DNA of 64,000 bases from Pseudomonadota bacterium (GTDB lineage Bacteria; Pseudomonadota; Alphaproteobacteria; Puniceispirillales; Marisalimonadaceae). The notes below the pieces were generated by a model. It worked only from the letters and a program-made list of their open reading frames with translations. It did no database searches and had not been told where the DNA came from. The DNA is taken from positions 1 to 64,000 of the forward strand of contig JAQBXK010000008.1 of assembly GCA_027625145.1 (NCBI GenBank), read 5' to 3'. Below are positions 60,803 to 63,451 of this stretch, one piece after another (the stretch's first letter is position 1; each line of letters opens with the position of its first letter). A program made the position numbers and the translations under genes.

Positions 60803-61515
60803 CTTTCAATTTTATCCCAAATTGAATTAGGTATTTCTTTAATAAACTCTTTATGTTTTTCATAATCAATTTGATTTAAATCTATGTTATTTATATCTTT
60901 CAATAATTTTTTTTCGTAATATTTAATAATATCAATATTTCCATAATCGTCTTTTTCAATTTTGTTTTCTATAATTTTTGTATCTAAAAAACTTAACGAT
61001 GTTTGTTTGCCACCTATTAATTCTAAGTACACTAGAGACAAAAGTTCTGCGTCTTTAAGCGCTCCATGTATTTTTCTATTACTTATATCTATTTCAAACT
61101 TTCTACATAAAGCATCTAAACTTATGGATTGACCTGGAAATTTTTTTCTAGCTAAAATTAATGTGTCTAAAATATTTTCTTCTTTTAATTCTTCTAAATT
61201 ACATCTATGAAGTTCAGAGTTTAAAAATCCCATATCAAATGAAGCATTATGTATAATAATTTTGCTATCTTCTAAAAATTTAACTAATTCTTCTGATATA
61301 TCAGAAAATTTTGGTTTATCAGATAAAAATTCTTGAGAAAGACCATGTACTTTTTCTGCTTTTGGATCAGATTTTTTTTCTGGATTTATATAATAGTGAA
61401 AAAAGTTACCTGTTTTTATGTGATTGTTTAATTCTATGATCCCTATTTCAACTATTCTATCACCATTTTCATGATCTAATCCTGTTGTTTCAGTGTCTAA
61501 TACTAGTTCTCTCAT
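60799..61515 (-). CDS. dnaQ: DNA polymerase III epsilon (proofreading) subunit
   Basis: This 3'-to-5' exonuclease proofreads for the replicative polymerase. ExoI is VLDTETTGLDHENGDRIVEIG (DxE), ExoII is HNASFDMGFLN and ExoIII is HGALKDAELLSLVYLEL. The C-terminal part binds the polymerase subunit. At 238 residues it is normal. Its ATG overlaps the coaE stop by one base. coaE-dnaQ beside hemE is a hallmark of alphaproteobacterial origins. Confidence 0.97.
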   Translation of the reverse strand: MRELVLDTETTGLDHENGDRIVEIGIIELNNHIKTGNFFHYYINPEKKSDPKAEKVHGLSQEFLSDKPKFSDISEELVKFLEDSKIIIHNASFDMGFLNSELHRCNLEELKEENILDTLILARKKFPGQSISLDALCRKFEIDISNRKIHGALKDAELLSLVYLELIGGKQTSLSFLDTKIIENKIEKDDYGNIDIIKYYEKKLLKDINNIDLNQIDYEKHKEFIKEIPNSIWDKIES

Positions 61516-62132
61516 TATTTTTTAATTCTCAATTTTAAGTTAATTAATATTAAATAAAATATAACTGAAAAGAATGTAATAATTTTTCCAAAATCAGTAG
61601 ATATAATTATTGGCTTTTGTTTTCTTTTAAAATAATCTGATAGTTGAGTTTTATTTATTTTATGAAATTTATCTATTGTCATTTCCGCTCTTTTCAACAC
61701 TCTCTTTTTTTGTGTTTTTTGTGAAGCAGAGGCTAATAAAATATAATCGCATATTTGATTTGTTTTTGTTTCATATAACAAAGGTATATCTAAACCAACT
61801 AATCTAAATTTTTCTTTTTTCTTTTCGATTATAAAGTTATCTCTTTTTTTATTTACAATTGGATGAATAATTTTCTCTAGTTTTTCTTTTTCTGTTTTGT
61901 TACTGAATATTATTTTACCTAGTTTTTTTTTATCTATTATTTCTATGTTATTTTGTAAATAAATACACTTTGGCCATTTTCTTTTTATTTTATTTTTTAT
62001 TGATAGATTATTTTCTAATATTTTTTTAACCTCTTCATCTGCATCAAAAATTGGTATTTTACAAAAATTAAGTATTTTGGCAATTGTCGTTTTTCCCATT
62101 CCAATAGAACCAGTTATACCAATTATTAACAT
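61515..62132 (-). CDS. coaE: Dephospho-CoA kinase CoaE
   Basis: CoaE phosphorylates dephospho-CoA, the last step of CoA synthesis. The P-loop is GITGSIGMGKTTIAK, followed by FDADEEVKKIL, HPIVNKKRDNFI and VGLDIPLLYET. At 205 residues it is normal, but the last 25 residues are strongly hydrophobic (IITFFSVIFYLILINLKL) where homologues carry an amphipathic helix. The gene lies next to the putative oriC. Confidence 0.93.
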   Translation of the reverse strand: MLIIGITGSIGMGKTTIAKILNFCKIPIFDADEEVKKILENNLSIKNKIKRKWPKCIYLQNNIEIIDKKKLGKIIFSNKTEKEKLEKIIHPIVNKKRDNFIIEKKKEKFRLVGLDIPLLYETKTNQICDYILLASASQKTQKKRVLKRAEMTIDKFHKINKTQLSDYFKRKQKPIIISTDFGKIITFFSVIFYLILINLKLRIKK

Positions 62133-62427
62133 TTACCCTCTTTTTATTTATAAAATGTTTAAAAGCTGTTTATATCTTTTTAATTTTTTATTTATCATTA
62201 TTTTATTATGATTTATTAACAATTATAATAGTAAATAAATATATGAATAAAATAAAATAAACAATTCATTGATTGTTAATAAGTATAATTTTTTGTATAT
62301 ATCCATTACTGTTTTAATTTTAATATATTGTGAATAATATTGTATTAAATTATTATTCACAATATTATTTATTACTACTTCTACATATACTAATTTTATA
62401 AAAAAAAGTTTAATTAATTGTGAATAA
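62133..62427. other. Putative replication origin (oriC)
   Basis: This 287-bp gene-free stretch between coaE (minus) and hemE (plus) is extremely AT-rich. It holds three perfect TTATNCACA nonamers: 62329-62337 (minus), 62353-62361 (plus) and 62419-62427 (minus, entering hemE). Two one-mismatch copies, TTATTAACA, lie at 62213-62221 (plus) and 62274-62282 (minus). The part at 62161-62330 could serve as an unwinding element. The hemE flank is where origins lie in Caulobacter and relatives, and gene orientation switches here. Function is inferred, not shown. Confidence 0.75.
62325..62365. repeat. Perfect 14-bp inverted repeat holding two DnaA boxes
   Basis: The arm ATATTGTGAATAAT (62325-62338) and its exact reverse complement ATTATTCACAATAT (62352-62365) are separated by 13 bp. 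Each arm contains one perfect DnaA box, in opposite directions. It could be a paired DnaA site or an operator for hemE. It has no T-tract of a terminator. Confidence 0.85.
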
Positions 62428-63451
62428 TAATAAAATACTTAATATTTTTAATAAAGAATCTGTTTCTTCCCCGCCTATTTGGTTTTTAAGACAAGCAGGT
62501 AGACATATTCCCGAATATTTTTCTATTAGAGATCAATCAAAAAACTTTATAAATTTCTGTTTGAACACTGATTTAATTGTTCAAAGCACAAAGTTACCTT
62601 TAAAATATTATAATATTGATGCAGCCATAGTTTTTTCAGATATTCTTATGATACCTTGGGCAATGAACAGAAACGTTAATTTTATAAAAGGTTTAGGTCC
62701 TGTTATGGATCCTATGATACCCAATGAAACTGAAATATTAAGTAATATTGATATTAAAAAATTACTTAAACCCCTTGATCAAGCTTTAAAAATTTTACGA
62801 TCTTCAATCCCTAAACATATTTCATTAATTGGTTTTGCAGGCGCTCCATGGACTTTAGCTTGTTATATGATTGAAGGCAAAAGTACTAAAGACTTTCTTC
62901 TTACTAGAAAAGCTGCGTGGTCATCTAATAATTGGTTTAATAAATTAATTGATACTTTGATAGATTATGTTGTTGATATTTTAGAAATGCAAGCTAATGC
63001 AGGTGCCGATGTATTAATGATATTTGATTCTTGGTCTCATATGATACCCAGCTTTTTTTGGAAAGATTTTGGAATAGATCCTACAAAAAAAATTATTAAT
63101 AATTTAAGAAAAAAAAATATTTTAACACCTATCATAGGTTTTCCTTTTAAAGCAGGGTCTTCCCTTATTAGTTATTCTTATGAATCAGGAGTTGATTGTT
63201 TAGCCCTTGATTGGACAGTTGATTTAAAATGGGCTATTGAAAATATCAATCCAAATATTATAATACAGGGTAATCTTGATCCTGCTTGCTTAATTGATAA
63301 TAATAATAATTTAGATAAAAGTGTTAAATTAATTTTAGATATCATGAAGAATAAACGACATATTTTTAATGTAGGACATGGTTTAACCCCTGAATGCAAA
63401 ATAGAAAATATTAAAAAAGTTATAGATATAGTTAAAAATTATAATAATTGA
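62420..63451 (+). CDS. hemE: Uroporphyrinogen decarboxylase
   Basis: HemE decarboxylates uroporphyrinogen III to coproporphyrinogen III in heme synthesis. Signatures are PPIWFLRQAGRHIPEY, the catalytic Asp in VFSDILMIPWAM, and VGHGLTPEC near the end. At 343 residues it is full length. The start is GTG without a visible Shine-Dalgarno, and the GTG lies inside a DnaA box. No alternative start lies before the essential RQAGR segment. It is followed by hemJ and rho. Confidence 0.96.
   Translation: MNNNKILNIFNKESVSSPPIWFLRQAGRHIPEYFSIRDQSKNFINFCLNTDLIVQSTKLPLKYYNIDAAIVFSDILMIPWAMNRNVNFIKGLGPVMDPMIPNETEILSNIDIKKLLKPLDQALKILRSSIPKHISLIGFAGAPWTLACYMIEGKSTKDFLLTRKAAWSSNNWFNKLIDTLIDYVVDILEMQANAGADVLMIFDSWSHMIPSFFWKDFGIDPTKKIINNLRKKNILTPIIGFPFKAGSSLISYSYESGVDCLALDWTVDLKWAIENINPNIIIQGNLDPACLIDNNNNLDKSVKLILDIMKNKRHIFNVGHGLTPECKIENIKKVIDIVKNYNN

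Follow-up and report, generated by a model that had tools for sequence, protein, structure and literature searches.

The DNA between coaE and hemE at positions 62133-62427 of the window (the whole stretch of 64,000 nucleotides analyzed here) had been proposed, in a first-pass annotation, as the chromosomal replication origin (oriC). Is this where replication starts, and how would the sequence serve that role? The closest neighbors of its hemE come from SAR116-cluster alphaproteobacteria (nearest SCGC AAA536-G10 / FRAM18_bin016, 90% identity), and by sequence the genome is assigned to that cluster. Our analysis makes it very probable that 62133-62427 is the oriC of this SAR116-cluster alphaproteobacterium. 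Most of this marine lineage is uncultured, and knowing where its chromosome starts to replicate helps in estimating growth rates from read depth.

Position of the Probable Origin

The region is flanked by two divergent genes that match the first-pass assignments: coaE, encoding dephospho-CoA kinase (61515-62132, minus strand, PF01121, 1.4e-33), runs leftward and hemE, encoding uroporphyrinogen decarboxylase (URO-D/HemE; 62420-63451, plus strand, PF01208, 9.8e-93), runs rightward from a predicted GTG start at 62420. The presence of hemE as the boundary gene is conserved in relatives. The DNA between them, taken as the putative oriC (62133-62419) on its AT content, box enrichment, family alignment, and the skew minimum described below, is 88% AT compared with 72% in the window. 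The earlier description of the region as very AT-rich was correct, but not that of 62133-62427 as gene-free, as its last nine positions (62419-62427) overlap the start of hemE. No structured RNA or tRNA was found within the window.

The GC skew was computed on the 67-kb contig carrying the window (C1) and on samples from relatives, the source genome being a draft of 2,265,925 bp in 83 unordered contigs. The cumulative minimum of C1 falls at 62,823, as the first-pass annotation had predicted for an origin at this locus. A similar picture was obtained in G065, a complete chromosome of the same order (2.75 Mb), where 40 samples of 20 kb, one every 68 kb, placed the minimum in the interval 1.788-1.836 Mb, which brackets hemE at 1.809 Mb. 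The dnaA gene of this chromosome (1.721 Mb) is situated on the falling arm of the skew. The skew of a 500-kb part of a same-family contig (G038) was noisier: the lowest sample lay near 430 kb, a broad low extended to hemE at 494 kb, and the 1-kb profile had a local minimum at hemE.

In many bacteria, oriC adjoins dnaA. The dnaA-dnaN-recF-gyrB cluster was found intact at the end of another contig of the draft (C77, locus L003, 11865-18248). C77 ends with the same 8 bases with which the window begins, next to rpsT, which suggests that C77 and C1 are neighbors joined at this gene, even if 8 bases alone are weak evidence. In the family genomes that carry both genes on one contig (G006, G038, G040, G041, G047, G051, and G052), dnaA and hemE are 61-64 kb apart, in agreement with the earlier expectation that dnaA is not next to the origin and that the window starts near it, about 62 kb away.

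With this arrangement, the true origin could be sited at dnaA, by rpsT, the boxes between coaE and hemE then being a DnaA reservoir or regulatory site. The intact gene cluster and the AT-rich DNA upstream of it would fit such a model. However, the 397 bp that precede the organism's own dnaA contain no TTATNMACA site, and the 21 loci tabulated upstream of dnaA in relatives, several of them short stretches, hold two scattered boxes in total. When C77 and C1 were joined, the skew minimum remained at 62,823 and did not move to the junction, and the dnaA of G065 is likewise away from the minimum. On boxes and skew, we reject an origin at dnaA as very unlikely.

DnaA Boxes between coaE and hemE

Five DnaA-box-like sites are present in 215 bp (62213-62427), three TTATTCACA and two TTATTAACA. 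The number and spacing are those given in the first-pass annotation, but all three nonamers that it had written as TTATNCACA are in fact TTATTCACA. In 5000 shuffles of 62133-62428 that kept the dinucleotides, TTATNMACA occurred 0.21 times on average (maximum 4) against the 5 copies observed, and TTATNCACA occurred 0.03 times against 3; none of the shuffles reached five or three, respectively. This is the richest 296-bp stretch of the window for boxes, 592 of the 618 other stretches sampled having none. A richer cluster elsewhere, which the first-pass annotation had raised as contrary evidence, was looked for in the whole 2,265,925-bp draft: it holds 45 copies of TTATYCACA, among which no pair within 2 kb was found outside this locus, and hence no richer TTATYCACA cluster.

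Several of these sites could be followed through a family alignment of 30 dereplicated sequences. Closest to coaE, a degenerate box (ATATAAACA, 62167-62175, minus strand) occupies an alignment column that is mostly TGTTGATAA in relatives, many of which have TTATYAACA or TTATTCACA at this position. The weak box TTATTAACA at 62213-62221 (plus strand) is retained in the nearest relative only. At 62242-62250 (minus strand), the one-mismatch box TTATTCATA stands at a conserved box position, aligning with ACATGTTAATAA / ACATGTGAATAA, and the TTATTAACA box at 62274-62282 (minus strand) is conserved in genera g1 and g3 as TTATTCACA or TTATTAACA. Two conserved TTATTCACA boxes then face each other head-to-head, box E (62329-62337, minus strand; mostly TTATCCACA in relatives) and box F (62353-62361, plus strand). 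All the conserved boxes point leftward except F, and their order and orientation are kept in the family, with a reduced set in genus g4. By count, box F is present with at most one mismatch in 33 of 40 family loci, and we propose it as the double-stranded anchor of an unwinding module. The sequence scan also gave a TTATTCACA overlapping the GTG start codon of hemE (62419-62427, minus strand), where relatives usually retain TGTG and a few the full box; this nonamer is probably accessory. A sixth TTATTAACA was found inside coaE, at 62123-62131.

The overlap of one box with the hemE start and the 15-bp inverted repeat made up by E and F in this genome could be taken to mean that the boxes are sites for DnaA or another regulator at the hemE and coaE promoters, with the E-F palindrome acting as an operator or hairpin. 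However, relatives do not share the palindrome beyond the boxes themselves, and their E and F sequences frequently have different bases at the N position, which disrupts the stem and leaves the boxes intact. The folding of the DNA was unexceptional (z -1.59). A conserved hairpin or palindromic operator was rejected, as the boxes alone are conserved. A CRP/FNR site was also considered, but the 23 bp separating TGTGA from TCACA exceed the spacing of a CRP/FNR dimer site. As regulation at the promoters leaves both the skew minimum and the trio-like element described below unexplained, we give this reading almost no credence compared with an oriC. One further head-to-head pair of the E-F type was found elsewhere in the genome.

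A Period-3 Element beside Box F

Starting 13 nt after box F, a period-3 element that the first-pass annotation does not mention reads CTA CTT CTA CAT (62375-62386, plus strand), and the opposite strand is 3'-GAT GAA GAT GTA-5'. The B. subtilis origin sequence provided one basis for deciding in which orientation DnaA-trios are to be read. The other was the set of 5'-tailed scaffolds published for that system, which place the trios on the strand opposite TTATCCACA, beyond its 3' end (PMC8287927). Read in this way, the element fits the published trio pattern and is a candidate for DnaA-trios: three or more 3'-NAN-5' trios lie no farther than 16 bp from box F (13 nt, CTA CTT CTA), a rule easily satisfied in AT-rich DNA. 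The published spacer in the basal unwinding system (BUS) of B. subtilis peaks at 10-13 bp with a limit of 16 (PMC8287927). On its 3' side, the element is followed by an AT-rich stretch (62387-62418), and the same place is AT-rich in relatives; by sequence, this is likely to be the first region to melt. Among the papers searched, none had both DnaA-trios and Alphaproteobacteria as terms, and an earlier description is possible.

Accepting the locus as oriC, one could still see the element as part of the hemE leader or as a low-complexity repeat. It is close to the hemE start, and in most relatives the middle base breaks the published rule: three consecutive middle adenines cannot be obtained in any register at 25 of 36 family loci, and in some the element is made of CAA repeats, that is 3'-GTT-5'. 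On the other hand, 36 of the 40 dereplicated family loci had a run of at least four C at every third base, compared with 0.7% of shuffles, while period-3 runs of G never exceeded three. The distance from box to C run in the family was 10-14 nt. These counts are not independent events, because the loci are related. The runs extend beyond the family, with a weaker effect. At the order level outside it, they were found in 60% (6% in shuffles), and other alphaproteobacterial families also have them next to hemE, in many cases with AT-rich DNA after them. Across the class, runs of at least five were found in 50% of 40 hemE upstream regions, some of which may not be origins, compared with 16% of mononucleotide shuffles. 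With these observations, we consider a leader or simple repeat unlikely, if still a serious contender, and favor a trio-like role for the element. The genome has one further site that combines a box with a C run.

This variation of the triplet repeat among relatives is not expected from the B. subtilis model. In B. subtilis, the middle base of the trio contacts Asn187 through its amino group, a thymine at this position slows strand separation and growth, and the guanine contacts Arg202 and Glu228 (PMC10721633). The DnaA encoded on C77 has the helix-turn-helix signature GGKDHTTVIHA, like the B. subtilis protein, and carries Tyr, Ile, Leu, Lys, and Glu at the positions of B. subtilis Asn187, Ile190, Ile193, Arg202, and Glu228. 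The SAR116 proteins have Tyr (one His) at 187, Lys at 202, and Glu at 228, and Tyr or Phe was found at 187 in 28 of the 29 other alphaproteobacterial DnaA aligned. One alphaproteobacterial DnaA (L273, from G220) keeps Asn at 187, and upstream of its hemE (L223) the box-plus-run scan gave no trio-like run.

With the guanine kept, the middle base variable, and Tyr at 187, a relaxed middle base would thus be a coherent idea. As a tentative model, one that we hold with less than even confidence, SAR116 origins, and perhaps hemE-type alphaproteobacterial origins generally, could use G-anchored trios (3'-GNN-5', often 3'-GTT-5') and no longer depend on the middle adenine that Asn187 reads in B. subtilis. 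It is possible, with the same reserve, that this relaxed reading pairs with Tyr or Phe at 187, while the retained Glu228 and a Lys at 202 would serve the guanine. Trio changes that track DnaA changes were not seen within SAR116, where Tyr is near constant, and because of this constancy the link between trio and DnaA rests on the contrast with B. subtilis. These loci, in which guanine and three-base spacing are kept and the middle adenine is often absent, offer a natural comparison on how DnaA reads single-stranded origin DNA.

From the location, boxes, skew, and conservation observed here, we infer how binding, melting, and firing might proceed. DnaA, whose gene lies some 62 kb from this locus, would bind the double-stranded boxes, and box F would anchor a filament growing rightward. 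This filament would grip the lower strand of the period-3 element and open the AT-rich DNA that extends as far as the start of hemE. The helicase would then be loaded at the opened stretch, and two forks would leave.

Comparison with Known Origins

The origins of Caulobacter crescentus (Cori) and Rickettsia prowazekii (hemE/COG1806) also adjoin hemE, are AT-rich, and hold several DnaA boxes (PMC1914354). They differ in their left flank, which is COG1806 in these organisms and coaE here, COG1806 being absent from 61515-62419. CtrA sites are a feature of the Caulobacter origin, but no exact TTAA-N7-TTAA was found in 62133-62427 and none was conserved in the family; CtrA control was rejected on these grounds. 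Because several Rickettsiales origins have few or no CtrA sites (PMC1914354), their absence does not exclude a hemE-type origin. A hemE-side oriC in this genome is ordinary for the class and well supported.

The pattern of box F, 13-nt spacer, and CTA CTT CTA (3'-GAT GAA GAT-5') matches the BUS of B. subtilis oriC (PMC8287927). In contrast to the BUS, the spacer here is AT-only, most relatives keep the trio G and not the middle A, and the DnaA has Tyr and Lys in place of Asn187 and Arg202. The locus is very probably a further hemE-type oriC, and the trio variant among its relatives deserves a test. The G065 chromosome (2,753,527 bp), which we take to be that of Candidatus Puniceispirillum marinum, likewise has its skew minimum at hemE, with dnaA 87 kb off, but differs in having few recognizable boxes.

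GANTC is the CcrM site of other alphaproteobacteria. The motif is depleted in the window (positions 1-64000), where base composition predicts about 161 copies and 92 are present; the 330 bp upstream of hemE hold none at 40 family loci. The hemE match in G072 (contig C7, about 234530-235504) is split into four overlapping pieces, which suggests a frameshifted gene or assembly errors.
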